DNA of 55,720 nucleotides, from IMG/VR virus record IMGVR_UViG_3300022685_000009, positions 1 to 55,720 of that record. One strand, given 5' to 3'. How positions within the stretch are numbered: position 1 is the first letter of the stretch; every line of letters begins with the position of its first letter. This document shows positions 61 to 53,137 of this stretch, piece after piece. A program made the translations under genes and the position numbers. This DNA is from a virus. A model generated the notes under the pieces. The model worked only from the letters and a program-made list of their open reading frames with translations, had not been told where the DNA came from and did no database searches.

Positions 61-2367
61 CGCGAGCGGGTCATTTTTGGCGGAAATCGCACAGGAAAAG
101 CGCAACCACTACAAGAACTTGTAAGCACACCTTATGGCCCGACTAGAATGGGTGACTTGACTGTTGGAAGTCAAGTGACCGGCTCAAACGGGCGGCCTGT
201 TGTGGTCACGCACATACACCCGCAGGGTGAGCGAGAGGTGTGGCGCGTTACAACCAAAGATGGCTCAAGCACCCTGTGCGACAAGGAGCACTTGTGGCAG
301 GTGTCAACACGACGCGGAAAAGTTTATAGAGAAGAGGTTTTGCAAACAGACCAACTACGAGAGAACTTGGCGGCTCGCTCGTACTATCTACCGCCGCGTC
401 CGACTGTTCAGTACCAGTCTCGCGAGCTTTTGGTTGACCCGTATTTGCTCGGACTGCTTCTTGGGGACGGATCACTTACAGCCACACACTGCGCTCTAAC
501 CACGAAAGACGAGGAGCTGGCCGATTTTTGTGCTACGCAGGCTTCGTTGTGGGAGTGCGAGCTGCTGGCTCGCCCGCCTTATGGGTACCACTTCGCCACG
601 CTAATCTCTCCCGGAGGCCGGTGCCGCAACTTACTGACTGACGCTTTGCGAGCGTTGGGGGTGCATGGCTGTAACAGCTACCAGAAGTTCATCCCTGACG
701 AGTACAAGTATTCGCAGCCGCACGAACGACTGGCGGTTTTGCAGGGGCTCATGGACACAGACGGTACTATATCGACCGCTGGCACCCACGCGAGTTTTTC
801 CACGTGTTCACGTCGCCTCGCCGACGACTTTTTGCATTTGGCTCGCAGCCTTGGCTTGTACGCCAGCTTGGCGCAAAAGCGTGGAACCTATAAGCACCGG
901 GAGCGTTTGTCGTGGCGCGTGACACTGTACACCCAAAACGAGGTTCCTCTGTTCCGGCTTCGTCGTAAACTTGAGATTCAGCAGGGTTACACCGCCGCGC
1001 CTAACAAGGTGCTACGAGGGTCTCGTGTGGTGTCCGTTGAGTATGTTGGTGAAATGGAGTGCCAGTGTATTACGGTAGACTCGCCAGACCACTTGTATTT
1101 GACGGCGGAGTTTCTACCAACACACAACTCGGTCGCTGGCGCCACGGAAGTCGCTTACCACCTGACCGGCCTCTACCCCCACTGGTGGAAAGGCAAGCGG
1201 TTCAATCGCCCGATTCAGGCGCTGGCCTGCGGCAAGGAAGGCAAACTGACGCGAGACACCGTGCAGCAGATTCTGCTGGGCAAGCCGGACGAGTTTGGAA
1301 CCGGGCTGATTCCCGGCAACTGCCTCGACCGGGAGCGGTGCACGTCCTCTCGCGCAGCCGCCGGCTTGTTTGACGGGGTGCAGGTGAAGCACAAAGCTGG
1401 CGGTTGGTCGATGCTAAGGTTGAGGTCTTACGATCAGGGCCGAACCGCCTTCGAAGGCACGGAGCGAGATGTCGTCTGGGAGGACGAGGAGGCTCCGCAG
1501 GACGTGCACAACGAGAACCTCATGCGGACGATGACCACCAACGGCATTGTGCTCAACACGTTCACGCCGCTGAAGGGCGAGACGCCGCTGGTCCGCGACT
1601 TGCTTAACAGGGCTGAGGAAGGAACCGTCTTTAGCATTAACGTCTGGTGGGACGACGTAGGTCACATCACGCCGGAAATGATCGAAGACATGAAAGGGCG
1701 TTACCCCAAACACGAGATTCGCGCTCGCAGATTTGGAGAGCCTCAGCTCGGGTCAGGCGCGATTTTTACCGCTGACGAAGACAGCTTCGTTATCCGGCCT
1801 ATGGACTTGCCGGATTACTGGCCTCGGATTTACGGCCTTGATTTCGGCTGGACTCACCCCACCGCTGCTGTTTGGGGCGCCCACGACCGCGAGACGGATA
1901 CCCTGTACGTTTACTCGGAGCATTGCCAGTCGAAGGCGGAGGTTCCGATCCACGTTCAGGCCATTAAGATGCGGGGCGATTGGATCACGGGAATCTCTGA
2001 GACGGCGGGCACCAGCCAAGCGGACGGCAAGCGCATGATTGACTTGTACAAGGCGCACGGCCTAAAGCTGAAGAAGGTGATGAAGGGGGCGGGCAGTGTC
2101 GAGTCCGGCATAATGCGGCTTCAGGAGCGGTTCGCTTCGGGCACACTTAAGATTATGGAGACTTGCCCGATGCTGATCTCCGAACTTCGCCGCTACCACC
2201 GCAACGAGAAAGGGTCGGTGGTGCCGCAGAACGATGACCTCATCGACGCAATGCGATACATGGAGAGCGGCCTGAAGTATGCTAAGACCCGCACCGAAGC
2301 CCGTGGCGCCCTGTCGGGAGGGAATGTTCGGGAAGTTAATTTCTGGAGGCGAGGACTCAATGGCTGA
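1..2367 (+). CDS. terL: Terminase large subunit (TerL), 3' part, interrupted by an intein
   Basis: This is the DNA-packaging motor ATPase and nuclease. The frame is open from base 1 and its 5' end is at 55508-55660 on the other side of the junction. The Walker A motif GGNRTGK|S is split by an intein at 100-1128. After splicing the protein would be about 496 residues (84 N-terminal plus 412 C-terminal), a normal TerL length. The C-extein shows a Walker B-like DVVWEDEEA, a coupling-like NTFTPLKG, and RuvC-like nuclease acidic motifs GLDFGW and DDLIDAMRY. The small terminase lies directly upstream and the portal directly downstream, with its ATG inside the terL end. The apparent ATG at 148 is internal to the intein and is not the start. 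Confidence 0.95.
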   Translation, partial: PNSRDGYRKHIAFFNAGRDYRERVIFGGNRTGKAQPLQELVSTPYGPTRMGDLTVGSQVTGSNGRPVVVTHIHPQGEREVWRVTTKDGSSTLCDKEHLWQVSTRRGKVYREEVLQTDQLRENLAARSYYLPPRPTVQYQSRELLVDPYLLGLLLGDGSLTATHCALTTKDEELADFCATQASLWECELLARPPYGYHFATLISPGGRCRNLLTDALRALGVHGCNSYQKFIPDEYKYSQPHERLAVLQGLMDTDGTISTAGTHASFSTCSRRLADDFLHLARSLGLYASLAQKRGTYKHRERLSWRVTLYTQNEVPLFRLRRKLEIQQGYTAAPNKVLRGSRVVSVEYVGEMECQCITVDSPDHLYLTAEFLPTHNSVAGATEVAYHLTGLYPHWWKGKRFNRPIQALACGKEGKLTRDTVQQILLGKPDEFGTGLIPGNCLDRERCTSSRAAAGLFDGVQVKHKAGGWSMLRLRSYDQGRTAFEGTERDVVWEDEEAPQDVHNENLMRTMTTNGIVLNTFTPLKGETPLVRDLLNRAEEGTVFSINVWWDDVGHITPEMIEDMKGRYPKHEIRARRFGEPQLGSGAIFTADEDSFVIRPMDLPDYWPRIYGLDFGWTHPTAAVWGAHDRETDTLYVYSEHCQSKAEVPIHVQAIKMRGDWITGISETAGTSQADGKRMIDLYKAHGLKLKKVMKGAGSVESGIMRLQERFASGTLKIMETCPMLISELRRYHRNEKGSVVPQNDDLIDAMRYMESGLKYAKTRTEARGALSGGNVREVNFWRRGLNG
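100..1128 (+). mobile_element. Class 3-type intein with LAGLIDADG endonuclease in TerL P-loop
   Basis: This is a 343-residue in-frame insertion between Lys and Ser of the Walker A motif. It begins AQPLQELVSTPYG, so residue 1 is Ala, not Cys or Ser. It ends LPTHN followed by Ser as the +1 extein residue. Splicing blocks visible are A (MGDLTVG), B (CDKEHLWQV), F (ECQCITVDSPDHLYL) and G (LPTHN). Trp two residues after the block B His, Cys in place of the usual Asp in block F, and Thr before the terminal His-Asn form the W-C-T signature of class 3 inteins, which splice without an N-terminal nucleophile. Two endonuclease motifs, LLGLLLGDG (about residues 113-121) and LQGLMDTDG (about 214-222), keep their acidic residues, so the homing endonuclease may be active. 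Splicing activity is inferred. Confidence 0.93.
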
Positions 2368-6137: not shown

Positions 6138-7217
6138 ATGCCAACTCAAGTAGGGGGCGATACAGCCCGCCATTACGGAGGTGTAGACACGTACGGTAAC
6201 GGCTCGCCGACTGGCCCCGGTAACCGTACCAACGTCTACGCTGAACTCGACCTTCTGGAACGTGCGCGTCCCCAGCTTGTGCTGGACCTCGCATGTGACA
6301 AGAAGAACATCCCTGCCAACAAGGCGGAAACCATCGCATTCCGCCGCGCAGTCAACGCTGCGGTCAGCACCACGACCGTCACCGAAGGTGTGAACCCGGC
6401 CAGCCGGGGTCTCGCATACGAGGACGTGACCGGCACGCTCGGCGAGTACGCCGAGATTTACGAGATCACTTCTCGTATGCGTGAGCTGGGTGAAGACAAC
6501 GCCATCCGCGACTCCTCCGATGTTTTGGCCGATCTGGTCGCCAACATCAAGGAAGCTGTGTCGTGGGCTGCCTTCATCCAAGGCGCAAACGTGCTGTACG
6601 CTGGCGGCGTTGCCAGCCGTGACACGGTGGTCGCACCGATCAGCCTCGGCGAATTTCAGGAGTCCGTGCGATCCCTGATGGCCGCCAAGGCGCATCGCTT
6701 CACCACGGTCGATCACGGTGGTCTGAACGAGAACACCTACCCGATCGAGGCGGCGTTCTATGCGTTCACCCACACGGACATGCAGCCGGACCTGCGCATG
6801 CTGCCGGGCTTCAAGACCACCGCCGAGTACGGAGCGAAGAAGATCGTCTCCGAGTACGAGTTCGGTGCGATCGAGAACGTCCGCGTCATGACCACGCCTC
6901 AGCTCACTCCGATCATCGACGCCGGCGGCTCGGGCGGAACCAACGTGAAGAGCACGAGCGGCACCGACGCCGACGTGTACATCACGCTGGTGTGCGGCAA
7001 GCACGCTTTGGGCTGTGTCGATCTGAAAGGTGCTGGCAAGAGTGGCTACGGTGGCGCGAAAATCAACGTGCTGTCCGGCGCTTCCAAGTCTGACCCGACG
7101 GATCAGCGGTCTTACGTCGCCTGCCGCTGGTGGGACTTGAAGATGATCCTCAACGACGAGTGGGTCGTGCGGATCGAGTCAGCCTGCACGGACGATCTGT
7201 CCCAGCTGTACGTCTGA
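6138..7217 (+). CDS. Major capsid protein, N4-gp56 family
   Basis: This 359-residue protein forms the icosahedral shell. Its central part shows the pattern of the N4-gp56 family: EGVNPASRGLAYEDVTGTL, then EYAEIYEITSRM, then a helix with DVLADLVANIKEAVSW and ALYAGG-like NVLYAGGVASRD, and a C-terminal TTAEYGAKKIVSEYEFGAIENV segment. The ATG is preceded by a strong AAGGAGA. It sits directly after the scaffold gene, and a 12-bp perfect hairpin follows the stop, which may protect the 3' end of this abundantly needed message. Family assignment is from memory of the motifs. Confidence 0.9.
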   Translation: MPTQVGGDTARHYGGVDTYGNGSPTGPGNRTNVYAELDLLERARPQLVLDLACDKKNIPANKAETIAFRRAVNAAVSTTTVTEGVNPASRGLAYEDVTGTLGEYAEIYEITSRMRELGEDNAIRDSSDVLADLVANIKEAVSWAAFIQGANVLYAGGVASRDTVVAPISLGEFQESVRSLMAAKAHRFTTVDHGGLNENTYPIEAAFYAFTHTDMQPDLRMLPGFKTTAEYGAKKIVSEYEFGAIENVRVMTTPQLTPIIDAGGSGGTNVKSTSGTDADVYITLVCGKHALGCVDLKGAGKSGYGGAKINVLSGASKSDPTDQRSYVACRWWDLKMILNDEWVVRIESACTDDLSQLYV

Positions 7218-16454: not shown

Positions 16455-19400
16455 GTGAACACCATCGACATCAACTCACTGCTTAGCAGCGCGGCGGACA
16501 GGACGGGCCTCCCTCCCGACTTGTTGGAACAAATTGTTTTTCAGGAGTCGTCCAACGACCCTAACGCCGTGTCTCTTAAAGGCGCACAGGGGCTGATGCA
16601 GGTCATGCCCGGCACGGCACAGCAGCCGGGTTTCGGCGTGCCCGAGTTTGACCGCCAGCGCCCGCTTAACGACCCCGAAGAAAACGTCCGGTTTGGCGCT
16701 GACTACATCAACGCGATGAAAAAGCGGTATGGGGGAAACATCGAACATGCTCTGCTCGCTTACAACATGGGGCCGGGGAACACGGACGAGTGGGTCCAAA
16801 AAGGCGAAGACGCGACTCGGCTTGATGACGAACCTCTGTTTTATGTGGCCAACATCACCAAGCGGGTTGCCGACCAGCGCGGTGTTCAGATTGACAGCCC
16901 CTACATCCGCGAAGCTCGGCGCCGTTTAGAAGAGCGCGGCGAAGACCCCAGTTTTTTTGACCTGCCGGAGCCGGAGCGGCAGCAAACCGCAAGCCGCCAA
17001 CCGCCACCCGCTAACCGACGGCTGACGCTCGCCGAGGAAGACGACGCACCCGAGGGCGCACTTCAGTGGGTGGCCGACCACGCCGAGATGGTAGGCAAGG
17101 GCTTGTACACCAGCTTTATCGATCTTGCCTCGCTGGTCGCCGACGCCTCTGACCTTGGACAGGGGCCGGACAACGGGATCACCGATCGCATCGCCAACAA
17201 ACTGGAGAACCACGCCAGCCGGGTGCGCAATTCGCTTCCTGAGTACATCCGGCGCGACCTCGCTAAAGAAATTGTGACGCGTGACGAAGATGGAGAGCTT
17301 GAGTTCCACATGCCAAACCTACGGCAGGTGGCAAATCTCGTGCTGCAATCTGCGGCCCCGTCTGGCGCGATCGTGCTGGGCGGCAAGGCGTTGGTGAAAG
17401 GCGCGTCCGCCGTCAAGAAGCTGAAGGGTTTTGTCGAGAAGTCCCCTAAGCTGGCGAACGCCGCAGGATTGGGCACGGCCAACAGCGCGTACAACTCCGT
17501 GTCCGTTTACACCGACACGTACGATCAAGCCTTGGAAGACGCTCTCAGGGACGGGCTACCCAGAGACGAAGCTGAAGAGGAGGCCGCAAAAGCCGCAACT
17601 TTGGCGGCAGGTATTACAGCGCCGCTATCGTTAACCACGGGGGCACTTGGAGAAGGGCTCTCCGCCACCGGAAGCAACGTAACGAGCCGCCTACTCAAAG
17701 GCGTGCTCTACGGAGGCGTGACCGAAGCGCCGGAGGAGGCGGGCCAGTACGCCGCCGGTCAGATTGGCCGGGGCGAGGATGTTGAGTCCGCCGCCCTCCT
17801 GAACGCTGGCCTGATGGGGGCGCTTGGCGCTGGCCCGACCGAGGGTGTGATGGCGGCTGCGTTCGGCAACACCGGCGAAAGTCAAAGCCCCCGCCCGGTG
17901 CCGCCCGGCGACCCCGACCCGTCGCTGGTCGATGAGCCGGCGCCCCTGCCCAATGATGTTCCACGTGGAACAATCGGCGATCCCGACCAACTCAACTTGT
18001 TCCCTGACATTCCAACAGGAGAGTTGCCGCTCATGCCCGAGCAAGGAACGCTGTCGTTGGATGGTGGCCGGGCGGCTGACCCCAACCAACTACGGCTTGA
18101 TCTGCCGCTCCCTGCCGACGCGGCGGTAGCAGAGGACACACTGGAACCCTTGCCGGAGCAGCTCAACCTGTTCCCTGACATCCCGACGGAAGAGTTGCCA
18201 CTCCTTGACAACGGGCGGGGAACCTTGGAGTTGTCCGACAGTCGCTTCGACGCAGACCTGAACCAGCTTGAGCTTGACCTACCCTTCCCCAACGCAGCGG
18301 TAGCGGCGGGAGTCGCTGACACCGAGGCGGCGGTTGATGCCAGCCCGGTTCTGCCGAATGCGCAGGACGCGCTCGATGCCCCGGCTGAGGAGGACTTGGC
18401 TGAGGTTGAAGAGATCATCGAAGAGTCCGCAACAATGGCCTCGCAGATCACGCCGGAAGACGGCGAGATGAACATTCGTAATATCAACGCCTTACGGCCT
18501 GAGCGTGTTCCCGAGAACGAGTCTGCCGAGGACGAACTGGCTCGCCTGATCGCGGAGCAGCAGTCGCAAATGGAAGGGTCTGGCCTTGAGGCGTCGGAAA
18601 CGGCGCAGCGAGCCGCCGAAGTCAACGCCGAACAACGCCGTCGCCGGGCGGCAAAGGAAGCCGAGGCTGAAGCCACGGAGACTACGACGCCGCCAACGAC
18701 GCCGCCAACGACGCCGCCAACGACGCCGCCAACGACGCCCGCTGCTGAAGAACCCACCACGCCCGCTGCTGAAGGTGAGCCGATCTATGAGTTTAACGGC
18801 GCTACCTTCCGGCAGGACGATGTTGATCTGGCCAAGTCCGACCCCGACGCTTTCATCGAGCGCCTACGCGAGAACGGCTTCGATGACTACGAGATCAACT
18901 CAGCCCTTGATCACTTCGGGGAAGAGAAGACCGAGGTTAAGCCGACGCTGACGCTTCCGAACAAGACCGAGGTCGAGGCGCAGGTCGAGGCCAAGGAAGT
19001 GCAAGATGCGGCCAAGACCAAGGTTGAGGAACAGGAGACCCCGACCGAGCCGGACGGCGAGTACGAGTTCGAAGGCGAGACCTACACGAACGCCGACGTG
19101 CTGGAGGCCCGAGCCGACCCGCAAGCTTACTTTGACAGGCTGACCCAAGAGTACGGCTACAACTACGACGAGGCCGAGCGAGCCATTGAGTACCTTGAGG
19201 CCAAGGCCATGGCTTCCGCCGGCCCCACCAAGCAGGAGCTGGAGCTGGCTGAGCTTGCGCGGGAGAACCCGCAGGCTGCCTTCGAACAGGTCTTGAGGCT
19301 GGGCAGAACTCCAGAGGAGGCCGACGCTGTCATGGCCCGGCTCGCGCTTATCAATTCCACTAAGCCGCTGCCTGCGGAATCAGCGACGCCGGAAACGGCA

Positions 19401-22400
19401 CAGCGACAGGGAGAGCTACCGGTCACTCGCTGGCAACCTGTCCGCAACGACTTCGAAAGCCGTCTGCGGAAAGCGTGGCGCAAGTTGGTTGGCAAGAAGG
19501 CTACCCCGACGACCATGCCCGAGTACGAGCAGCGCATGGAGGCCGCTGGTGACCTAAAGGTCAAGCCCGGTGACGTGCTCGACATGTCGCACGGGACCAG
19601 CCGGGAGTTTGACCTGCACCAGCGGGCGGTCGCGGACGAGTCGCGCGGCATCATGTTCTTCACCAACGCCGATGCGGTGGCTTCGAAGTACAGTAACTGG
19701 CAGGGAGGCCGCAAACCACGTCGGTTCACGGCCCGCGCTATCCCGCGCAAGCCCAAGACGCTGCGCTGGGGCACGGAAGACGGCATCCAGAGCATCGAGG
19801 ATGTGCACGTGGCGGCGCTGGAGGCGCAGGCTAGCAAGCACGACATGCTCGTGATTGTTGGTGTGCCCAGCAACGTGGACAGCGTGGCTCCCGACACGGC
19901 GCAGGCGGGCCGAGAAACGGCGGAGTCCGTCGAGCCGGGCGTCCCCGGCCTGACCAACTTTTATGTGACGCTCGACCCGAACGTCGTTACCCACCGACCG
20001 GGAGCGGACACGCTCAATGGCGAGGTGGTGGGAGAGAGCGTACCGCTGGATCAGGACTTTCGAGACGAGAAAGGCGAGACCACGTCGCCGGTTCAGGAAG
20101 AAATGTTTGGTCCGAAGGGCGGGGTAAGGAGGCTGGCTCGCCAAGGGCCGGGTCGCGCGGTTCGTCGAGCTGCCCCGGCCACAGCCACAGCCACCGCGCC
20201 GGAGCCTGAAGCCGCTGACCCTGATGTAAAAGAGATCAAGCTGACCCGGCGTCAGCGAGACTTTCTTGATAAGAACCTGCCCGAGGAAGTGGTTGATCAA
20301 CTCATGCCCCTGCCCGCTGGCAAAAAGAAACGGCCCATGAAGCTGTTCCTCAACGAGGAGCAAGCTGCCGAAGTTCTCGCTCTCGTCAACCGTGAACTGG
20401 GGCCGGGTAAGGGGCGGGACGAGAAGCTCGTTAAGATGGGCGACAACCTGCGCAAGAACATCAACAAACAGTTTAAGCCTGACGAAACGGTGGCCGGAGA
20501 CGTGGTGGATGTTACCGCGCAGTACGCCGAGGCCACGGGCGCCGAGGTGGTGACGGAGGCCGAGAAGGAGGCTGAAGACGCCGAACCCAAGAGCGAGTAC
20601 CTGTACTTCCCCAAGAAGCGGCTCAAGAAGCTGGCCCGCGAGGCGCTCAAGGGCGACAAGAAAGCCCAAGCGTACTTCCGCAAGATGACCGACGACGAGC
20701 TACGCGCTCTGCACCGAGGCATCGCCGAAGAACTCATGGCCGCCAACCCCGGCCAGACCCAGCGTGCGCTCGACACTGCCATGGTCGAGGCTACGGTGGC
20801 GAAGATTCAGGAACTGTCCGGTTACTCTGCACCGGCGCCGGAGACGGAGGCCACTAGTGAACCTGACCCCGACCTTGCCAACGAGGAGGCAGCGGAGGCC
20901 GTCGCTGACAACGCGGCGGCAGCGACGATTACCGCTGCGCGTATGGCGCCGGACATGCAGACCCCGGCGCAGGCCGCCACTGCCCCGGCGGCGCAGCCGA
21001 GGGTGGTTGAAACCACCTACGAAACTCCGACCAGCCCCGAGCAGATTCCAGAGGAGGATCAGTCTGCGGCCAAGGGCAGCGATGCCACGCACAAGGGGGT
21101 GGACCCGAACACAGACAAGACCCAGACGACCCCAACGTCGGATCAGGTAGACGCCGGCTCTGCTTCCAAAATTGAAGCCGCCCAGACTGCCGACGGCGGC
21201 ATGGGTGGGCGGGGCGGCGATGCCGCAACCGAGCCGGGCGACATGCCCGGCGACCGGGGCGCTTCTGAGCAGGCCACCTACGACGAACTTCAGGAGGTTA
21301 TCGAAGCGCACTCTGGCCGGTGGGCTGACGTGTGGTACTACCTGTTCGCAGACACCGCAAAAGGCCGTCGGTACCACAAGCCACAGGCACCGGGTGAGTC
21401 CACGGCCCGAGGCGATGTCTTTGCCATGCAGAGGTACCGGCGCCGCCTGAAGCAGTGGAAGGCAGAGAAAGCTCAGGCCATCAAAGATGCCAAGGCCCGA
21501 GGCGATCAGGATTACGTTTTTCCTGATGACCCTCCCCTGCCGCCGTCCAAGCGGCGGGCGCGAGCCGACACGCGAGTGGATAAGTTCGACTGGGCCGAAT
21601 TCAGAGAGCTGGTGAAGCGGGCCATGGGTCGGTCGCGGGTGTACTGGATGGAGCGCATGGTGGATCAGCACTATGCGGTCAAGCTGATTCAGGACGTGGG
21701 CCGTATCACCGACGAGAACGGCTACATCCAAGACCCGTTTCAGCTCTATGAAGCCCTCACCCGTGTGGGTTCGAAGGTCGACGTGCGCATCAAAAAGTTC
21801 GCTGGCAACCAGAAGAAAGCGATCGAGGACGCTGCCAACGAGGCGGGAATGTCGTTCGACGAGGCCAACGAGTTTGCCGCCGTGTTGCACTCTCTCCAGC
21901 GGAACGAGTACATCTACAACCGCAACCTCAACAAGGAAGGCGTGGTGCCGCAGCGAATCCCCGACAATCAGGTGGGTTACAGCGGTTATTCCAACGAGCA
22001 GGCGCGGTTGGTTCTCGCCGAGTACGAGTCCCGGTTCGACCGTCAGGCGCTGGCCAAGCTGGAGGATGCCATCTTCGAGACGGCCCAGTTCCTGCGCACG
22101 GAGATGGACAACGGCAAGCTCATCGGCGACACCCAGAAGGATCAGTGGACAACCACGCCGGAGGGCAGCAGCTACATCCTCGACCGCTACCGGCAGCTTC
22201 GCAACTCGCAGGGCTACGCGGCGGCGCTTGACCCGGCGAACTACGATCTCAACCAGATTCCCGATAAAGAGTACGAGGGGCTGGACTACTCGCCCGATGA
22301 GGCCAAATTCCGACTGCTCAACGACACGCTGCACAACATCACATACGTGCCTCTGTCCGACATCCGCCCGGTGACCGTGGCCGAGGTCATCACTCAGCAG

Positions 22401-24608
22401 TTGAAGGTGAAGGCGGGCCGAAACTTCTACTCCGAGTACGACATCTGGGGCCAAGACATCGGCACGGCGTATGGCCGACAGGTGGAAGGCCCGGCCACGG
22501 CGCCGCTGACCCACCTCATCAGCCATGCCCAGCAAGCCATCATTCGCGGCGAGCACAACGTGGAACAGGCATCGCGCTTGCAGAACCTCGTCAAGAAGAT
22601 GGACGACCCTTACTTTGGCGTCGTGCTGCCGGAGATGGAGGAGGGACACTACAACGTGCCCGGCAACATCGAGAACGCGATCAACAATCACTACGCGAAG
22701 CTGGGGCTGGAGCCGCCGAAAATGCCGGTGAACGACATCGAGATGATCACATTCCGCAAGAAGAACGGCGACAAGTCCACGCCGACGGTGATCTTCGACA
22801 TGGCCACGGCCAACGCCCTGACCAACAGCTACAACGAGACGAACACGAAGCGGGTGTTCAACGCTATTGGCAACTCGTCCTCGTGGGTGCGGAAGTCCAT
22901 GACTGCGTGGTCGCCCCCGTTCCACGCCACCAACTATGTGCGCGAAGTGTTCAACGCCAAGATTCAGTCGCGCGGGATCAAGGGTCTGACCGAGGAGCAA
23001 CGGGCAGCGGTGTCTGCCAAGGCCGGGTTCGGCGAGTCGATGAAGTGGTTCAAGCCCATCTTCCAGCAGATGCGCGATCCGAACTTCGACGTGAACTCCA
23101 TCACTGATCCGGTGGAGAAACGTCGGGCGGAGACGTTCAAGGAGCTGCACGAGGCCGGGCTGGTCAGCGAGTTCTTCCACATCAAAGACCCGATCCAGTT
23201 GGAGCGGGAGCTAAGGGAGGCTGAGCGCGTCCTGAACAACCCCGGTCGCAGCTCCATGAAGAAGGTCAAGGGCGTGTTCAAGTCACTGGCCCAGAACCTT
23301 GAACTGATGGCTGCGGTGTCAGAGAACGCCGTGCGTATGTCCGTCGCTGCCGAGGTGTTGGCACAGACCGGCGACGTTAACTTCGCGGCGTCAGTGGGCA
23401 AGGACTTGTCGGTGAACTTCCAGCGGTACGGAACGTGGGGGTCTGCCATCAACAGCCTGTTTTTCTTCTACAACCCGACGGTGCAAGGGCTGTACCGGGC
23501 GAAGCGGGCGCTGCACCACAAGGACGTGCAGAAGGTAGTTGCCGGCATCGTCACTTCCAGCGCCATGCTGGCCGTGCTTAACCGGGCGCTGGCAGGAGAA
23601 GACGAGGAAGGGCGGAACTACTACGAGTCAGTGCCGGAATGGAAGCGGAAGACGAACATGGTCATCATGATCCCCGGCGGCGAGGGGCGCCATATCACCG
23701 TCCCCCTGCCGTACGTGTGGAACCTGCCGTATCTGGCGACGGAGAAGATTGCCAACACGATCATGTCCGACAGCGACCCCCGGCCCGCCGGGCAGCAAGC
23801 TACATCTCTCGCTGGCGACCTGCTGGGAGCGACGATGGAAGCGGTCAGCCCGGTCTCCTACTCGTCAGGGAACCCAACCCGCTCAATTATCCCGACCATG
23901 CTCCAGCCGGGGTACGACGTGCTGACCAACCAGACATGGTTTGGGGGTTATATCAACCCGCGCGTCACGGACTTCTCTGGTGCGCCGGTGACGGACGCCT
24001 ACAATATCCGCGATCCCGACCAGAAGAAGGTCTGGCAGAACATCGCCAAGACCGTTGCTATCGGGGGCAGTGAGTTTGAGAAGGGGCTGGTTGACGTGTC
24101 GCCGGGTACGCTGGAGTACCTGTTCAAGTACTACACCGGTGGCGCCGGGACGTTCCTCACCCGCACGATGGACACGACGGCTGCCGTCTTCGCCGGTGGC
24201 ACCGGGGAGACAGCGGAGGAAATCCTTACCAACGCGCCGATACTGAGGCGGGTGTACGGGCTGGGTGAGTTCGAACAGGCTGATGCCGACCGGTACTACC
24301 AGTTGCGGGGCGACCTCGCGGCGGTCAAGAACACGGAGAAGTCGCTGAAGGAGAGCCGAGACCGGGAAGGCTGGCAGCTCTTTAAGAACACGGAGGGTGA
24401 CCTGTACCGCGCCGGGGTCATGCGCGAGTTCGAACGTACCGAGAAGCGACTGCGCAAGCTCCGGCGACTGCGCAACGAGATCGTGAAAAAGGCGAACAAG
24501 ACCGAGGCGCAGCAGCGCCGGATTGACAGCTTGAACCAGCTCATCAGCAAAGAGATGGTGCGGTTCAACACCTACTACTTTGACCGGATTACCAAGGAGG
24601 CACTCTGA
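16455..24608 (+). CDS. Giant polyvalent ejection protein with lytic transglycosylase domain
   Basis: This 2717-residue protein starts at GTG directly after the preceding stop. Residues 1-115 form an SLT-type lytic transglycosylase: catalytic Glu31 in FQESSND, then GLMQVMPGTA and LAYNMGPGN, expected to cut peptidoglycan during DNA entry. Residues 500-620 contain two copies of a repeat with QLNLF and QL-x-LDL motifs, followed by a PTTP repeat near 750. Residues about 775-965 carry three UBA-like helical repeats. Residues about 1030-1190 (DMSHGTSREFD, GIMFFTNADAVASKYS) resemble ADP-ribosyltransferase domains of polyvalent proteins. Residues about 2140-2400 (WSPPFHATNYVREVFNA) resemble the LPD38-type associated domain. 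It is probably packaged and ejected into the host. Domain names beyond SLT are tentative. Confidence 0.88.
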   Translation: MNTIDINSLLSSAADRTGLPPDLLEQIVFQESSNDPNAVSLKGAQGLMQVMPGTAQQPGFGVPEFDRQRPLNDPEENVRFGADYINAMKKRYGGNIEHALLAYNMGPGNTDEWVQKGEDATRLDDEPLFYVANITKRVADQRGVQIDSPYIREARRRLEERGEDPSFFDLPEPERQQTASRQPPPANRRLTLAEEDDAPEGALQWVADHAEMVGKGLYTSFIDLASLVADASDLGQGPDNGITDRIANKLENHASRVRNSLPEYIRRDLAKEIVTRDEDGELEFHMPNLRQVANLVLQSAAPSGAIVLGGKALVKGASAVKKLKGFVEKSPKLANAAGLGTANSAYNSVSVYTDTYDQALEDALRDGLPRDEAEEEAAKAATLAAGITAPLSLTTGALGEGLSATGSNVTSRLLKGVLYGGVTEAPEEAGQYAAGQIGRGEDVESAALLNAGLMGALGAGPTEGVMAAAFGNTGESQSPRPVPPGDPDPSLVDEPAPLPNDVPRGTIGDPDQLNLFPDIPTGELPLMPEQGTLSLDGGRAADPNQLRLDLPLPADAAVAEDTLEPLPEQLNLFPDIPTEELPLLDNGRGTLELSDSRFDADLNQLELDLPFPNAAVAAGVADTEAAVDASPVLPNAQDALDAPAEEDLAEVEEIIEESATMASQITPEDGEMNIRNINALRPERVPENESAEDELARLIAEQQSQMEGSGLEASETAQRAAEVNAEQRRRRAAKEAEAEATETTTPPTTPPTTPPTTPPTTPAAEEPTTPAAEGEPIYEFNGATFRQDDVDLAKSDPDAFIERLRENGFDDYEINSALDHFGEEKTEVKPTLTLPNKTEVEAQVEAKEVQDAAKTKVEEQETPTEPDGEYEFEGETYTNADVLEARADPQAYFDRLTQEYGYNYDEAERAIEYLEAKAMASAGPTKQELELAELARENPQAAFEQVLRLGRTPEEADAVMARLALINSTKPLPAESATPETAQRQGELPVTRWQPVRNDFESRLRKAWRKLVGKKATPTTMPEYEQRMEAAGDLKVKPGDVLDMSHGTSREFDLHQRAVADESRGIMFFTNADAVASKYSNWQGGRKPRRFTARAIPRKPKTLRWGTEDGIQSIEDVHVAALEAQASKHDMLVIVGVPSNVDSVAPDTAQAGRETAESVEPGVPGLTNFYVTLDPNVVTHRPGADTLNGEVVGESVPLDQDFRDEKGETTSPVQEEMFGPKGGVRRLARQGPGRAVRRAAPATATATAPEPEAADPDVKEIKLTRRQRDFLDKNLPEEVVDQLMPLPAGKKKRPMKLFLNEEQAAEVLALVNRELGPGKGRDEKLVKMGDNLRKNINKQFKPDETVAGDVVDVTAQYAEATGAEVVTEAEKEAEDAEPKSEYLYFPKKRLKKLAREALKGDKKAQAYFRKMTDDELRALHRGIAEELMAANPGQTQRALDTAMVEATVAKIQELSGYSAPAPETEATSEPDPDLANEEAAEAVADNAAAATITAARMAPDMQTPAQAATAPAAQPRVVETTYETPTSPEQIPEEDQSAAKGSDATHKGVDPNTDKTQTTPTSDQVDAGSASKIEAAQTADGGMGGRGGDAATEPGDMPGDRGASEQATYDELQEVIEAHSGRWADVWYYLFADTAKGRRYHKPQAPGESTARGDVFAMQRYRRRLKQWKAEKAQAIKDAKARGDQDYVFPDDPPLPPSKRRARADTRVDKFDWAEFRELVKRAMGRSRVYWMERMVDQHYAVKLIQDVGRITDENGYIQDPFQLYEALTRVGSKVDVRIKKFAGNQKKAIEDAANEAGMSFDEANEFAAVLHSLQRNEYIYNRNLNKEGVVPQRIPDNQVGYSGYSNEQARLVLAEYESRFDRQALAKLEDAIFETAQFLRTEMDNGKLIGDTQKDQWTTTPEGSSYILDRYRQLRNSQGYAAALDPANYDLNQIPDKEYEGLDYSPDEAKFRLLNDTLHNITYVPLSDIRPVTVAEVITQQLKVKAGRNFYSEYDIWGQDIGTAYGRQVEGPATAPLTHLISHAQQAIIRGEHNVEQASRLQNLVKKMDDPYFGVVLPEMEEGHYNVPGNIENAINNHYAKLGLEPPKMPVNDIEMITFRKKNGDKSTPTVIFDMATANALTNSYNETNTKRVFNAIGNSSSWVRKSMTAWSPPFHATNYVREVFNAKIQSRGIKGLTEEQRAAVSAKAGFGESMKWFKPIFQQMRDPNFDVNSITDPVEKRRAETFKELHEAGLVSEFFHIKDPIQLERELREAERVLNNPGRSSMKKVKGVFKSLAQNLELMAAVSENAVRMSVAAEVLAQTGDVNFAASVGKDLSVNFQRYGTWGSAINSLFFFYNPTVQGLYRAKRALHHKDVQKVVAGIVTSSAMLAVLNRALAGEDEEGRNYYESVPEWKRKTNMVIMIPGGEGRHITVPLPYVWNLPYLATEKIANTIMSDSDPRPAGQQATSLAGDLLGATMEAVSPVSYSSGNPTRSIIPTMLQPGYDVLTNQTWFGGYINPRVTDFSGAPVTDAYNIRDPDQKKVWQNIAKTVAIGGSEFEKGLVDVSPGTLEYLFKYYTGGAGTFLTRTMDTTAAVFAGGTGETAEEILTNAPILRRVYGLGEFEQADADRYYQLRGDLAAVKNTEKSLKESRDREGWQLFKNTEGDLYRAGVMREFERTEKRLRKLRRLRNEIVKKANKTEAQQRRIDSLNQLISKEMVRFNTYYFDRITKEAL
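17957..17972. promoter_or_regulatory. Perfect chromosomal-type parS site (ParB binding)
   Basis: The sequence TGTTCCACGTGGAACA is a perfect 16-bp palindrome that matches the bacterial parS consensus bound by ParB. It lies in the low-complexity linker of the giant protein gene, coding DVPRGT. I found no second copy or parA/parB genes, so if it acts it would recruit host ParB. A random exact occurrence in a genome of this size is very unlikely. Confidence 0.8.
18690..18745 (+). repeat. 12-bp tandem repeat encoding PTTP units
   Basis: Near-perfect 12-bp units of the type CCAACGACGCCG encode a PTTPPTTPP stretch in the giant protein, a flexible linker between its repeat regions. The boundaries are approximate. 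Confidence 0.8.
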
Positions 24609-33381: not shown

Positions 33382-33728
33382 TCTTCATCTCCAAAGTCAG
33401 GGCGGCTCGGCTGGGTAGGGACAAAGATGATGTCCTTGTCCCGCACGTGCCGGTCGCCCTCGATTGTCAACATGTGGCGAACGACCACCTCGCTTTCCAA
33501 CTCGATGCGAGCGATCAGGTTGCGATCTCGTAGTCGTTTCAGCACCTGATACATGTAGTCCCGACTCGTTACCTTGCCGGTCACGCGATACAGGTAGACC
33601 AGAAGCTCGTCGATCGTGGCTGGGCCACGCTCGTTCATGTATGCCATCGTCAGGTCGTGCGTGTTGTGCTCCGTTCGACCCACCAGTTGTTCCGCCAGCT
33701 CGGGCGGTAAATCATTTGCAGTCGGCAT
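33378..33728 (-). CDS. Winged-helix-like small protein
   Basis: This 116-residue protein has a helix-helix-helix-strand pattern at residues 20-85 (DLTMAYMNERGPATIDELLVYLYRV, SRDYMYQVLKRLRDRNLIARIE), which resembles a winged helix-turn-helix as in transcription or replication accessory proteins. The ATG at 33728 follows AGGAGAG and overlaps the polymerase gene end; an earlier in-frame ATG lies well within that gene. It could bind DNA or partner with the polymerase or nuclease beside it. The function is not established. Confidence 0.7.
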   Translation of the reverse strand: MPTANDLPPELAEQLVGRTEHNTHDLTMAYMNERGPATIDELLVYLYRVTGKVTSRDYMYQVLKRLRDRNLIARIELESEVVVRHMLTIEGDRHVRDKDIIFVPTQPSRPDFGDEE

Positions 33729-35094
33729 AACTCTCTCCTGCGTGTGCCTCCCCAAAGACCGGCAAGTCCGGCCACCACTCCGGCGACCTACCGAAGATTT
33801 CTTCTGCCCGATCCAACACCGGCTGTTTGTCCACGTGGTCGGGCACCACGCAGACGCTCTCATCGTGGATGGACATGACCGTGCGACACGCCGGGTCGAA
33901 CTCAGCGGTCAGCGCCGTGTCCAGCTCCACCTGTTGTTCAAACACCACGTTGCGGGCGACCGCTTGGCAGATATTCTCAAATGCCTTGGCGCCCCAGATA
34001 CGCACGTCCTCCTTCGCGGAGCCTCGGCCACCAGCCCAGCGGGTGTAGCTCAGCTCACCGTCCTGTCGCCGTAGCTCGGGGTAGGTGATGGACAGCCCCG
34101 TCCTTGGCATCGTGAAGCCCGCGACGCCCTTCTCTACCGACGGGTTGGCATAGACGATCTCGTCCATCCACCAGCCCTCGGCTTCGCCACGCCTCAGCTT
34201 GTTCAAGATGTAGTCGATCTGCTTCCAGACCCGAACGATCTTGGGGAAGGTGCTACGGTAGAGCGCCACGATCCGCATGGCTTCCTCCGCTTCGATCTCC
34301 ACGCCCCAGTTAAACGATGCGTTCATGAACCCCTGCCAGCCGGTGCCGTACTGGAGCGAGAGCATGGCAATCTTGCCTATCAGTCGCTCAGATTCCGTGA
34401 CCTCGTCCTCGGTCTTTCCGTACAGGTGGGCAGCGAACAACCGGTATAGGTCGAAGTCAGGGTCGTGCATGCGCTCGACCACCTCCCACTCCCCGGCGAT
34501 GCACATGGCGATGCGCAGTTCGATGTTGCTGCTGTCCACGGCGAACATCCAGAAGTTATCCGGTGCGATCACCGCCTTCCTCAGCGGCGACTTGCGCCCC
34601 AGATTCTGCGGGTTGCCGCCGCCACCCATCCCGCCGCTCAACCGGTGGGTAGTCTTCGCTCCCGACAGGTTGAGATCGACGGGCCACGTGCCTCGGTTGG
34701 CCACGTCCAGATAAGACTGCGCCCTCGTTTCGTTGATGCTGGACTTCACTCGCAACCGGGCGGCAACCAGCTTGGCTACCTCCTCGTTCTCGTGTTCTTG
34801 CAGCGCCACGAAATCCCGGTCGGTCTTGCTGAAAGCGTACGTCTCCTTGCCCGTGGTAGGAGACACCTTCGTCGGTGGCTCCACACCCAGCCCTTTCAGC
34901 AGGGTGGCAAGTTGCGCGTTGCTGTTCAGCGCCTTCTTGTTGGCAGCGACGCAGCTCTCAATGGCTGCTTGCTTCTCGCTCTCTTCGATGGCGATCAGCT
35001 CACCTAGCGGGTTGGGGTCCAGCTCCAGCACGGGGTCGGTGAACATGCGGGTCACGATGTCCACGGTTCTCAGGTTGAAATCCAGACTGTTCAT
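33712..35094 (-). CDS. DNA polymerase, family A, polymerase domain only
   Basis: This 460-residue protein holds the family A polymerase palm and fingers: THRLSG...NPQNLGR, motif A VDSSNIELR (Asp187), motif B RLIGKIAMLSLQYG (Arg237, Lys241, Leu245, Tyr249) and motif C IHDE (about residues 409-411). The 3'-5' exonuclease domain is absent and is encoded by the gene upstream. In E. coli Pol I numbering the residue at 762 is Leu (Leu245 here), a known viral variant. Motif A has Ser where Tyr is usual. The ATG overlaps the exonuclease stop (ATGA), so the two are translationally coupled. Catalytic residues are complete. Confidence 0.93.
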   Translation of the reverse strand: MNSLDFNLRTVDIVTRMFTDPVLELDPNPLGELIAIEESEKQAAIESCVAANKKALNSNAQLATLLKGLGVEPPTKVSPTTGKETYAFSKTDRDFVALQEHENEEVAKLVAARLRVKSSINETRAQSYLDVANRGTWPVDLNLSGAKTTHRLSGGMGGGGNPQNLGRKSPLRKAVIAPDNFWMFAVDSSNIELRIAMCIAGEWEVVERMHDPDFDLYRLFAAHLYGKTEDEVTESERLIGKIAMLSLQYGTGWQGFMNASFNWGVEIEAEEAMRIVALYRSTFPKIVRVWKQIDYILNKLRRGEAEGWWMDEIVYANPSVEKGVAGFTMPRTGLSITYPELRRQDGELSYTRWAGGRGSAKEDVRIWGAKAFENICQAVARNVVFEQQVELDTALTAEFDPACRTVMSIHDESVCVVPDHVDKQPVLDRAEEIFGRSPEWWPDLPVFGEAHAGESYADCK

Positions 35095-35651
35095 GCCGCA
35101 GCCCTCCGTTGCATGCTCGTGTAGAAGATGTTGTAGAGCATATGCGTCTTGTCGCAGTCGCCGATGCAGTACACGCCCAGCTCGTGCGCCTCCTCTTTGG
35201 ACAGCCTACGCTTGCCCTCAACACTAAACAGGGCCGTTTGGTCTTTGATCTCGCCCGGCAGCAGCAGCTCGGTCAACGCTTTCAGCGAAGCGGAACGCAA
35301 GCTGTTCCCGTACAACATGTAGGCAAGGGAGCGGGTGCAGACCCAGCCCATCGGTCTTGTGTTGTAGTGGTGCGACAGCACCAGCCCGTCGAACTTGGCG
35401 TTGTGCGCCAGCATGACATGACCGGAGAAGTCCACCTTGTCGAAGAACGCTTTCACGTTCTTGGCTCCGTAAATCCACCTCGTCTGGTTGAACCCTTTCT
35501 TCACACCAACCCCGTGCGTCAGCCAGCGCGGGTGCCGTATGTACTCCTCGGTGTTCTGGTGGCTGAAACCCACCTTCTCCTTCTTGGAGAAGAAAGTTTC
35601 GAAGTCCACCGTTATCACCTTGTCGGGATGGAACATCTGCATGTCGCTCAT
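35091..35651 (-). CDS. DNA polymerase 3'-5' exonuclease (DEDD) subunit
   Basis: This 186-residue DnaQ/DEDD-type exonuclease has Exo I VDFETF (Asp16, Glu18), Exo II HNAKFD (Asn84 to Asp88) and Exo III YCIGD (Tyr161, Asp165). It matches the proofreading half of a family A polymerase and lies directly before the polymerase domain gene with a 4-base overlap, so the phage seems to use a two-gene polymerase. The upstream small gene overlaps its start. No frameshift is visible; the stop is clean. Confidence 0.92.
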   Translation of the reverse strand: MSDMQMFHPDKVITVDFETFFSKKEKVGFSHQNTEEYIRHPRWLTHGVGVKKGFNQTRWIYGAKNVKAFFDKVDFSGHVMLAHNAKFDGLVLSHHYNTRPMGWVCTRSLAYMLYGNSLRSASLKALTELLLPGEIKDQTALFSVEGKRRLSKEEAHELGVYCIGDCDKTHMLYNIFYTSMQRRAAA

Positions 35652-41158: not shown

Positions 41159-42259
41159 TCAGTCAGACCGGCGCAGTTCGTTGGTGCGGGTGTGGTACTG
41201 CTGCGCCACGCTGGTGGCGAACAGCTCGGGGTGGCGCTTGAGCACTGGATCAACGACCGCCCCCTGCGTCTCAAGCGGGAGCCTCTCAACGTAGCGCATG
41301 ACAGTGTCGAAGTTGTCCGGCGCCGTGCGGTTGCCGACGTTGGAGCACAGCATCATCATGCTGGCGGGGTCGTTGGGGATCGGCGCCTCGCTTGGTGACG
41401 ACAGGATGGCAGAGAAAGGTACCAGCTTGTCGCGCAGGGCAAACACGGCGGCGATCTTGAGCGCAGCGGCGTCATGAATGTGACGGGCAAGGGTCTGCAC
41501 TCGCATGCCGTGGGTGATCTCGGTAGCTGTAGCCTCGCAGTACCGCTCCAGCGCATTCATCGCGCGGCTGGCGGCATGCAGGGAGCGAGGGGTGCTGTTC
41601 CGCATGCGGGTCGGATCATAGTCCTTGATCAGGCCGTCACCTTCCATTTTCATGGCGGCGATGACGATAGGATTCTCCCGCTGCTCCAGCCCCCACTCGA
41701 TGCGCTCCTGCGCAGTCGGGCCAGTCCACCTGATGTGGCCGTGCCTGTTGCCGGTGACCGCATTGTCGATGCACTCCAGCGCACCGTCTTCGACACCGTT
41801 GGCGAGGCCGATGCGGAACACGTGCTCCGGCCCAGTCCAATGCCCAACACGGGGGCGGCGCCCTTCCATGAGCATCATCGCCACCTTGTTGGCACCCTTG
41901 AGCTTGATCTCATCGATCACGAGGGTGTCACCGTAGCGCAAGCCGCTCAGCGTGGGGTGCAGGTGTGACTGGAGCTGGTCGCTACGGTCAACGTAAAGGG
42001 GGCCGGGGAAATCATAGTCCTCGTACAGCCCGATGCGCACCGTGTGCGTCTGCGGCCCGTCAGGGTGGAGCAGGTCGGGGTCGAACCCGTCCTGCATGGC
42101 GGCGGTGTACGCCCCGTCTTCGGTGATGGCTTCGGCGATCTCGGTTTTGCCCAAACCGGGAATGCCTTCGACCACCGTTGTGTTACCGGCGGCGCGGTCA
42201 ACGCCAAGCGCCAGCTTCAGCGCCGCAACGCCGTGTACTACATGCATTTCCTTGTTCAT
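41159..42259 (-). CDS. MoxR-like AAA+ ATPase
   Basis: This 366-residue protein has Walker A EGIPGLGKTE (residues 31-40), Walker B TLVIDEIK (112-119) and a downstream region consistent with a MoxR-type AAA+ lid. It heads a three-gene set with an unknown protein and the metallopeptidase-VWA protein. MoxR ATPases with VWA partners act as chaperones that insert metals or remodel complexes; in a phage the substrate is unknown. A strong promoter lies about 80 bases upstream. Confidence 0.88.
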   Translation of the reverse strand: MNKEMHVVHGVAALKLALGVDRAAGNTTVVEGIPGLGKTEIAEAITEDGAYTAAMQDGFDPDLLHPDGPQTHTVRIGLYEDYDFPGPLYVDRSDQLQSHLHPTLSGLRYGDTLVIDEIKLKGANKVAMMLMEGRRPRVGHWTGPEHVFRIGLANGVEDGALECIDNAVTGNRHGHIRWTGPTAQERIEWGLEQRENPIVIAAMKMEGDGLIKDYDPTRMRNSTPRSLHAASRAMNALERYCEATATEITHGMRVQTLARHIHDAAALKIAAVFALRDKLVPFSAILSSPSEAPIPNDPASMMMLCSNVGNRTAPDNFDTVMRYVERLPLETQGAVVDPVLKRHPELFATSVAQQYHTRTNELRRSD

Positions 42260-47099: not shown

Positions 47100-47615
47100 A
47101 TGGATAAACCCACGCTAAACGACTTCTCAACCGCTGACAATCACGTGGACTTCGACGCCTATGAAGCCGCGAAGCTGGAGTACTACCGCTACCGAAAGAA
47201 GGTCAGGGAAGAGGGGCGTCGCATGGGGCGCCCGCCCAAGGTGTCGAATGAGAACGCCGCGAAACTGACGGAAGCCTACTTTGTAAAGAACCAGCGCGGC
47301 GACGCGCTTGAAGCGTTCGCTCGCGACGAGTTGGGGTTGAAGGTGTCCACTCCCACCCTGTATGCAACCATCACCCGGTTTGCTCAGGGGTCGGATAAGT
47401 TCAAAGGGTGCCGCCCCACCCAGCCGGGAGGTAACCCTTTGTTCAACGACTATCAGGCTATGCTGCTGGCGAGAGCGAAGGCCGAGTCCGGCCTGACGCC
47501 GCGAAAGATTCAACGTATGCTCACCGAGCGCTTTGGCGCTGAGCCAAGCAAAAGCCTAGTGAAGAACACCCTGAAGCGTGGCAAAGCCATACTGGAATCC
47601 CGAGGAGAACTGTGA
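47100..47615 (+). CDS. Putative DNA-binding protein, first gene of the rightward block
   Basis: This 171-residue basic protein has an AT-hook-like RRMGRPPKVS (residues about 40-49) and two helical segments that may be helix-turn-helix (AKLTEAYFVKNQRGDALEAF, LTPRKIQRMLTERFG). No family is sure. The ATG has AAGGAGACC upstream. As the first gene after the divergent spacer, a regulator of late transcription or of the switch is a reasonable guess. Confidence 0.7.
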   Translation: MDKPTLNDFSTADNHVDFDAYEAAKLEYYRYRKKVREEGRRMGRPPKVSNENAAKLTEAYFVKNQRGDALEAFARDELGLKVSTPTLYATITRFAQGSDKFKGCRPTQPGGNPLFNDYQAMLLARAKAESGLTPRKIQRMLTERFGAEPSKSLVKNTLKRGKAILESRGEL

Positions 47616-49202: not shown

Positions 49203-49907
49203 ATGGCGGGGCGTACGACACCAAAACAACTACTGCTTACAACCGCCATGGAGCTGGCGAAGTGGAAAGGTACCGCCCCTGCCGACGAGCTGGGGCCGGC
49301 GCAGTCGCTTATCGACGCGGTGGCAGCAGGCGACACCACTGAGCCTGTCTTAGCGCACCCCATGACCTATTGGGTGTCAGATCGGTTTAATGTGCCGTGG
49401 TCTATTGCCACTACAGGTAGCCTAGCCGCCGGAATCGGTGACGATACGATTGTCTACCCGCCGCTCACCGTGGACATTACCGCAGGCGCCAGTGGGGATT
49501 TCTATGGGTATGCAGACCCCAGCTCAACAGTTCCTGTTGGCGGTTCAATAACCCCAACTACATTTGATTTGCCGAACAATAGTGGATCGACGCTCTTAAT
49601 CGCGGCAACTACTTCTGATGTACTGGTTCCCGGTTTTACCGGCCCGTATGCGTTCTTGTTTGATTTTGAGCACCCGTCCGGGGTTGAAGAGGTAGATATT
49701 CAGGGCGTCCAAGTGTCGTTTAGCGGGAACACGATGTATCTGCCAAAAGACGCGGCGAACAGCACTGATAGCGTTACGGCTTTCGCGCTTGATGGCGCTG
49801 ACGAACCGCTGGTAGAAACCCTGCACCTAGCCTTTGTTGATTCGGCCAGTTCAGGGCCGCTGACCACCACGGTGTTCCTGACGTTCGAGTTCATCGCTAG
49901 GCCATGA
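49203..49907 (+). CDS. Virion-type beta-rich protein
   Basis: This 234-residue protein has a helical N-terminus (TPKQLLLTTAMELAKWKG) and then a beta-sandwich-like body (GDFYGYADPSSTVPVGG, VSFSGNTMYLPKDAA). No signal peptide. It lies directly before, and overlaps by 4 bases, the large fibre gene, so a tail or decoration role is likely. No family recognised. Confidence 0.7.
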   Translation: MAGRTTPKQLLLTTAMELAKWKGTAPADELGPAQSLIDAVAAGDTTEPVLAHPMTYWVSDRFNVPWSIATTGSLAAGIGDDTIVYPPLTVDITAGASGDFYGYADPSSTVPVGGSITPTTFDLPNNSGSTLLIAATTSDVLVPGFTGPYAFLFDFEHPSGVEEVDIQGVQVSFSGNTMYLPKDAANSTDSVTAFALDGADEPLVETLHLAFVDSASSGPLTTTVFLTFEFIARP

Positions 49908-52900: not shown

Positions 52901-53137
52901 ACATGGACCGAGATCGAGATACAGTCTCCGCCGTGGATGATGCGGACCAATACCCGTGGAGCGTTTACCGTTTCTGGCACATCAAGGGCAAACGGCTCAG
53001 GCACCTACGGCCCGGTCCGTGCAGCCGTGTACGATGTGGATAACAGGGTGAAGTTCAACAACAGTTTTAACGCGGGGGGTGATGACCATTACCAGAGCGG
53101 CCCGTGTAGTGTTCAGGGTAGCCTTTATGTGGAGTAG
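49904..53137 (+). CDS. Tail fibre protein
   Basis: This 1077-residue protein has five copies of a repeat with DAPSDGNDY-R-W pattern (residues about 28-230). The repeats are flanked by two copies of FPPxxHTHxLAxIxDAGTLA, the SHTH-type collar motif of many fibres. A Gly-rich hinge (SGGGGGGGSF) follows near residue 565, then an NVGMGTSSPVRQAHV/NVGLGVTSQAQRLHV-type repeat and a long beta-rich C-terminus that may hold the receptor-binding part. It is the main host-recognition candidate. The repeats are recent enough to be recognised by eye. Confidence 0.85.
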   Translation: MSNNDRELRGRIAELEKRFPQAPPENPPGVVTEAPQDGVDYVRVDAQWRAAAYFSGLWGDLGGVPSTFPPSAHTHVLANIIDAGTLAGFDDAPSDGNDYARNNGRWVLVSGGGFPDAPSDGNDYVRRDANWEIANYFPDAPSDGKEYVRLNGGWAINTGGSAMPDAPSDGNDYLRRDGTWVVANYFSGAWRDLTGVPSAFPPDSHTHALADITDAGTLAAEDFPAASNGFFLRDDGTWAPPETRMNWRGTWSPLTYYEQDVVYQNGYAMVANKETTDQAAPTEVGLPEYTLPDAPMWQSVQQAARISSGHLYAFTTMAEVRGFRVWIPAVGPSIEYILTFVRDGATTQKVILNPVIGWNLVPITSTLFTPGAQVLAYLESENSSGNTIITGGWQRGSNNNNREPDNQQWNTNVQQNVLRIDFNDADSANRQAQLESIIAGSTIDFVETASPENFVTFRVTGNPTTGATSVIYPVQVTNTGAGTPSTGDLTTMTADVPVAQQTEFVGIADGWAGNQPTFAEVTSYLAFDGVDQGASLNNQYGLDPLVQELNASPDWDFLSAVGSGGGGGGGSFTPDIFEGPGTTGYVPDPVTGGKRYLDADANWGPIDYDDIANTPDIPTDSFWEGSLTGNISNANSGNVGMGTSSPVRQAHVVSTSNFVMRLQSSNDYSLIEFQQGANNISVGSNRGDFQIRIANVGQMLIKQGAPADSIHVDASGNVGLGVTSQAQRLHVDGGARLEDGAVEIRSPTNTPQSLIRTVDASGASVGQLSAHDFDGAGASTEWRFDSTIKSVLFQQAVLFEPLQGNGTRNVVVDSTGQIAAGPSVSGSEPWTPIGSLKYRIVWENNVNAINRAAFNLASSNATTIIRLGGESIGTDGADSGAGSTATRLANVVPGDQLRVASAEDPSRYALYNITAITDGGVDGKNYIVERTEGAGLNSGSVPDGEQVIVDFVPRQQSGESGTVNCVIRSSGNANRGSFTAYWGRTGSVVFLSGIGNASGTWTEIEIQSPPWMMRTNTRGAFTVSGTSRANGSGTYGPVRAAVYDVDNRVKFNNSFNAGGDDHYQSGPCSVQGSLYVE

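Follow-up and report, generated by a model that had tools for sequence, protein, structure and literature searches.

Why does a phage genome carry, inside the gene for a virion protein, a perfect copy of a site at which bacteria load ParB to segregate their chromosomes? The question is raised by a single 16-mer in the window (the whole stretch of DNA analysed, 55,720 nucleotides), and the answer depends on what the site resembles, whether it is retained in relatives of the phage, and how often it recurs in other viruses. The features needed for the argument are given below.

17957 to 17972, palindrome with no strand assigned: parS site TGTTCCACGTGGAACA, identical to parS2/parS3 of P. aeruginosa
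16455 to 24608, plus strand: gene of the 2717-aa virion protein that holds the site (Pfam SLT, 2.5e-25; LPD38, 6.6e-33)
17863 to 18400, boundaries approximate, plus strand: P/D/E-rich, poorly conserved linker around the site (from the alignment with the relative G005 and from disorder propensity)
6138 to 7217, plus strand: major capsid protein (phrog_1357, 9e-47), used as the query for relatives
41159 to 42259: ATPase family match (phrog_1297), the only one noted in the window

The site, its gene and its contig

The first-pass annotation had described the 16-mer as a base-for-base match to the bacterial parS consensus and as a perfect palindrome, and both statements were confirmed at positions 17957 to 17972. 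The same sequence serves as parS2 and parS3 in Pseudomonas aeruginosa (PMC4368675) and as parS in P. putida (PMC7022226), and it is bound in vivo by P. aeruginosa ParB with an enrichment spanning more than 20 kb (PMC5098823); the canonical parS in most other species is TGTTTCACGTGAAACA (PMC5450999). The window holds a single copy of TGTTCCACGTGGAACA and no other match with up to two mismatches, the runner-up being located at position 28924 with three mismatches. A first-order Markov model of the window predicts 1.7e-5 exact copies per window, and dinucleotide shuffles of the window yielded an expectation of 0.14 chance matches with up to three mismatches.

The site fits the form TGTTNCACGTGNAACA of chromosomal-type parS, a 16-bp palindrome, as does the corresponding site of the relative G005 described below. 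It is identical base for base to the Pseudomonas type. Unlike chromosomal parS sites, which are expected near the bacterial oriC and parAB, it lies on a phage genome, within a virion gene and not at a host oriC. A six-frame search of the contig, which may be incomplete, returned neither a ParB_N (PF02195) nor an HTH_ParB (PF17762) domain, which bears out the ParB part of an earlier statement that par genes are absent. Accordingly, the possibly incomplete contig does not provide the ParB gene on the same replicon that characterizes cis-encoded ParABS systems. Judged by its sequence, the element is of a familiar kind but occurs in a new context, as a host-type centromere in phages without ParB.

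The 2717-aa protein encoded by the surrounding gene contains an SLT lytic transglycosylase domain at its N-terminus (residues 11–117) and an LPD38 polyvalent domain near its C-terminus (residues 2388–2581), and resembles internal virion proteins with an endolysin domain (PHROG phrog_342, 8.8e-22). The reading frame passes through the site as t-GTT-CCA-CGT-GGA-ACA, coding for VPRGT, and the peptide DVPRGT occupies residues 501–506 approximately. The linker around it had been called weakly constrained, and this description holds: aligned with G005, it shows only 20–44% identity and 12–40% gaps, compared to roughly 50–90% identity in most of the flanking domains, and it ranks at 0.85 for disorder propensity within the protein.

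The contig itself, at 55.7 kb and 60% GC, is recorded as linear in IMG/VR and may be incomplete. Its genes include those for a terminase, a portal, the major capsid protein, a primase-like protein, a helicase and a family-A DNA polymerase, and no integrase or lysogeny genes were present among the proteins scanned, which represent part of the ORFs. Several other genes show features of their own. The ORF for the large terminase subunit (148–2367, plus strand) starts near the contig edge and includes a LAGLIDADG homing endonuclease domain at residues 194–265, probably representing an intein. The DNA polymerase is apparently split on the minus strand, with the polymerase domain at 33712–35094 and the 3'-5' exonuclease in a separate ORF at 35091–35651. 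A putative fibre or whisker protein of 1077 aa (49904–53137, plus strand) matches the fibritin C-terminal (foldon-like) domain at residues 89–110, near its N-terminus, and a small protein (47100–47615, plus strand) shows a weak homeodomain-like HTH_32 match under the curated cut-off.

Retention among relatives

To obtain relatives blind to the site, we used the capsid protein as the query, which yielded 13 IMG/VR records, four of them extending to the virion gene. Searching with the whole 2717-aa protein found no relatives, whereas profiles of the capsid and of the C-terminal part did find some. One of the 13 records, G005 (61.7 kb; 51–61% identical in the virion protein), contains TGTTCCACGTGAAACA at the homologous spot, differing from TGTTCCACGTGGAACA by one mismatch, and the other 12 have no match to TGTTCCACGTGGAACA with up to three mismatches. 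The G005 site combines one half each of the two described forms of chromosomal parS, TGTTCCACGTGGAACA and TGTTTCACGTGAAACA.

The aligned codons are GAT GTT CCA CGT GGA ACA in the window and GAT GTT CCA CGT GAA ACA in G005. The codons for D, V, P, R and T are thus unchanged, and the sole difference, GGA to GAA, turns one canonical parS into another. Around the site, the linker of G005 is about 20 residues shorter and largely replaced, and across this gene pair the codon is kept at only 51% of the identical residues. From the per-residue rates, we calculated a probability of about 0.016 for identical codons at all five conserved residues. In addition, five of the six site codons are uncommon in the gene, whose codon usage would lead to this set of six with P = 4e-6 if the peptide DVPRGT is taken as given. 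Because the same codons persist in an otherwise rearranged linker, the site appears to be kept at the DNA level. The selective maintenance as DNA that is expected of a chromosomal-type parS is indicated here by codon identity and uncommon codons in one independent relative, since a second record with the site, L199, is 99.98% identical to G005 and does not represent an independent case.

Further out, the site is missing. The 25–26 kb contigs of G007 and G009, which share about 90–97% nucleotide identity with each other and 39–47% protein identity with the window in the N-terminal part, differ in their linker and lack the site, and a DVPRGT-type peptide is missing in the distant relatives. A further contig, G010, stops short of the site position. 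The first-pass annotation had proposed looking for retention of the 16-mer in related phages and for synonymous changes that break the palindrome. The one informative relative, G005, keeps the codons and still carries a canonical parS, which supports the annotation's reading of the site as a possible means of recruiting host ParB; the 16-mer is retained there as the canonical variant TGTTCCACGTGAAACA and is missing in the distant clade of G007 and G009. Persistence of the site across considerable divergence, together with its absence in more distant phages, is as expected for gain or loss at the level of lineages.

Broader searches returned no further cases. Among 44 relatives of the N-terminal SLT part, mostly distant phage records, none has a site with up to two mismatches, a result that we took as a background rate, and no relatives of the capsid and virion proteins were found in bacterial genome contigs. 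The 16 cultured or named phages inspected (ten with a homologous portal and six DSL-LC04/HTVC-like) have no parS with up to one mismatch, and the single two-mismatch match among them, in MW202426, is compatible with chance.

Exact parS sites in other viral contigs

Scanning IMG/VR for the 16-mer TGTTCCACGTGGAACA and for the longer word GATGTTCCACGTGGAACA returned at least 120 contigs in each case. Together, the two scans gave at least 205 distinct contigs with an exact parS, holding at least 230 sites in at least 114 sequence clusters (with the site masked before clustering), although some of the contigs counted may contain host DNA. Of the 120 contigs listed for the 16-mer, 35 also contain the longer word, and extrapolation from this overlap points to a probable total of more than 400. 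As controls, we used two palindromes of the same base composition, for which IMG/VR was scanned to the end. Control CTTGTCACGTGACAAG occurred in two contigs, and control TGTTCCAGCTGGAACA, in which both arms are kept and the central step is swapped, in 54 contigs representing 38 clusters. The excess of parS therefore amounts to at least about 100-fold in contigs over the former, and to at least about 4-fold in contigs and at least 3-fold in clusters over the latter; the controls themselves lie 27-fold apart, indicating that counts of palindromes vary widely. Two to five sites per contig, counting those with one mismatch, were present in 19 of the 205 parS contigs listed, compared to none of the 54 contigs with TGTTCCAGCTGGAACA. 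None of the 50 long (>20 kb) parS contigs among the matches listed contained a ParB_N domain, and control genomes matched as expected in the same search. The recurrence of parS in unrelated viral contigs without ParB suggests that some phages may recruit the ParB of their hosts.

In these other phages, occurrences of the 16-mer within ORFs cover all three reading frames, and further ones are found outside long ORFs. The genes bearing it include hallmark genes for a baseplate wedge (L006), DNA polymerases (L013, L039) and a primase-helicase (L043), as well as genes for portal or head-tail adaptor proteins (L048, L062) and transglycosylase virion proteins (L024, L068). Among the matches listed, 47 of the 64 distinct sites within ORFs of at least 250 residues are read in the VPRGT frame, and these favour disordered regions, with a mean rank of 0.68 in their own proteins (KS p = 3e-4, a value inflated by one large family). 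No cultured relatives were found for L039 and L105. Like L269 and L302, the latter contig contains five exact parS sites spaced about 0.7 to 2 kb apart, in and outside long ORFs.

Because the other parS families were fetched by the exact motif, conservation of the site within them does not represent independent evidence, and we used only its presence or absence at a second place. This was informative in a marine family related to Pelagibacter phage HTVC027P and phage DSL-LC04, in which the site is located close to the terminase gene, close to the capsid gene, or in the protein encoded upstream of the latter. Two contigs (L291 and L258) have one of these places occupied and lack another, L045 shows the reverse, and five contigs have two. 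This turnover suggests that possession of a site may matter more than its position. In the five contigs with two exact parS (L266, L275, L284, L312 and L326), about 3 kb separates the two sites, of which one belongs to a ELEQPEEKDVPRGT-type linker in the protein encoded upstream of the capsid gene and the other lies near that gene.

Proposed recruitment of host ParB and its alternatives

We consider it probable that the 16-mer is a parS site kept by the phage to load the host's own chromosomal ParB, and that the resulting complex then positions the phage DNA; that host ParB is recruited in some form is put forward with high confidence. This reading starts from the site itself, a contig without a ParB gene, the codon-level retention in G005 and the recurrence of parS in ParB-less contigs, and from these we infer ParB binding, spreading and a benefit to the phage. 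Loading of ParB-CTP clamps at parS, followed by sliding, is established, according to a survey of the ParB-CTPase fold (PMC12704722). After injection of the phage DNA, ParB-CTP dimers of the host would bind the site and close into clamps, which, going by this biochemistry and by the spreading over more than 20 kb in P. aeruginosa, would slide over a large part of the genome of roughly 56 kb, so that one site could cover much of it. Host ParA and SMC would then act on the partition complex, and the phage DNA would be condensed, positioned, separated or inherited without any need for a phage-encoded par system. Placing the site in a linker would allow VPRGT or VPRET to be carried at little cost to the protein.

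Two alternatives also require ParB recruitment, which is why the confidence we place in them overlaps with that in the preferred explanation. Replicated phage genomes might act as decoys that pull ParB, with ParA or SMC, off the host chromosome and disturb host segregation or division. A site without a ParB gene, as observed, would suffice for such titration, the copy number of the decoy would increase with replication, and up to five sites are present on some contigs; however, most contigs have one, whereas a decoy would be expected to gather many, and we regard this explanation as unlikely. It is doubtful to a slightly greater degree that ParB clamps serve to silence or shield the DNA by spreading over late genes, where they would slow early transcription or block nucleases or helicases. 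This role would be suited by the extent of spreading in P. aeruginosa (PMC5098823) and by the late virion gene in which the site is found, with about 12 kb between it and the capsid gene. In other phages, however, genes for polymerases and primases contain sites too, and some sites fall outside long ORFs, which leaves no consistent association with late genes. If ParB is recruited, we rank positioning, organisation or episomal inheritance first in likelihood, titration second, and silencing or shielding third.

Explanations that dispense with ParB were weighed as well, and contamination, a phage operator and a peptide motif all ranked low. Databases of this size do hold 16-mers by chance, as illustrated by the control palindromes in two and 54 contigs, yet viral parS occurrences are far above both controls, the gene around the site codes for a phage virion protein and shares its contig with those for a terminase, a portal and a capsid protein, and a matching site was present in the independently fetched G005; a random occurrence or stray host sequence in a viral contig is therefore very unlikely. 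Even less credit is given to a constraint on the protein, under which DVPRGT or DVPRET would be a short peptide motif, for example a processing site, and the palindrome incidental. Its conservation inside a fast-evolving linker would fit, but the codons are uncommon in the gene and kept where others change, the 16-mer elsewhere is not tied to one reading frame or to long ORFs, and distant relatives lack the peptide. Least likely of all is an operator for an unrelated DNA-binding protein of the phage: the window does encode at least one HTH-type protein (the weak HTH_32 match), but all 16 bases match the host parS consensus, the site is common to unrelated phages, and no promoter-like site is nearby.

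Centromere-like sites on phage replicons are known from P1 parABS, N15 and the extrachromosomal prophages of mycobacteriophages, which encode their own ParA and ParB together with cognate sites of their own type (see, for example, PMC7157519); the window, in contrast, lacks ParB_N and HTH_ParB and carries a site of the type found on host chromosomes. Phages also draw on ParB-related biology through DdrB-like ParB domains in polyvalent proteins (PMC5512222) and, in ParB-only staphylococcal phages, through ParB itself (PMC10286716), and the window gene itself codes for a polyvalent LPD38 protein. These reports and the fold survey (PMC12704722) concern proteins and, in their available parts, describe no host-type parS, whereas the window has the site without the protein. 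In the open-licence literature, with subscription papers and preprints outside the scope, we found no account of host-type parS in phages without ParB.

The chances appear evenly balanced that parasitism of host ParB is a common strategy. Many ParB-less phages, some virulent-looking podoviruses among them, would then have one or a few parS sites of the host type, often as VPRGT in disordered virion linkers, and would rely on the centromere machinery for organising, segregating or holding their genomes, either while infecting a cell or in a carrier state. If the proposed recruitment is true, viruses use a bacterial centromere in trans, and a 16-bp site ties phage DNA to the ParB-CTP clamp, the ParA gradient and the SMC loader of the host. 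Synonymous disruption of one site would then provide a simple genetic handle on the positioning and organisation of phage genomes in cells, and the parS variant carried would help to predict the host clade. A further consequence would be an explanation of how phages could persist despite having no partition or integrase genes.
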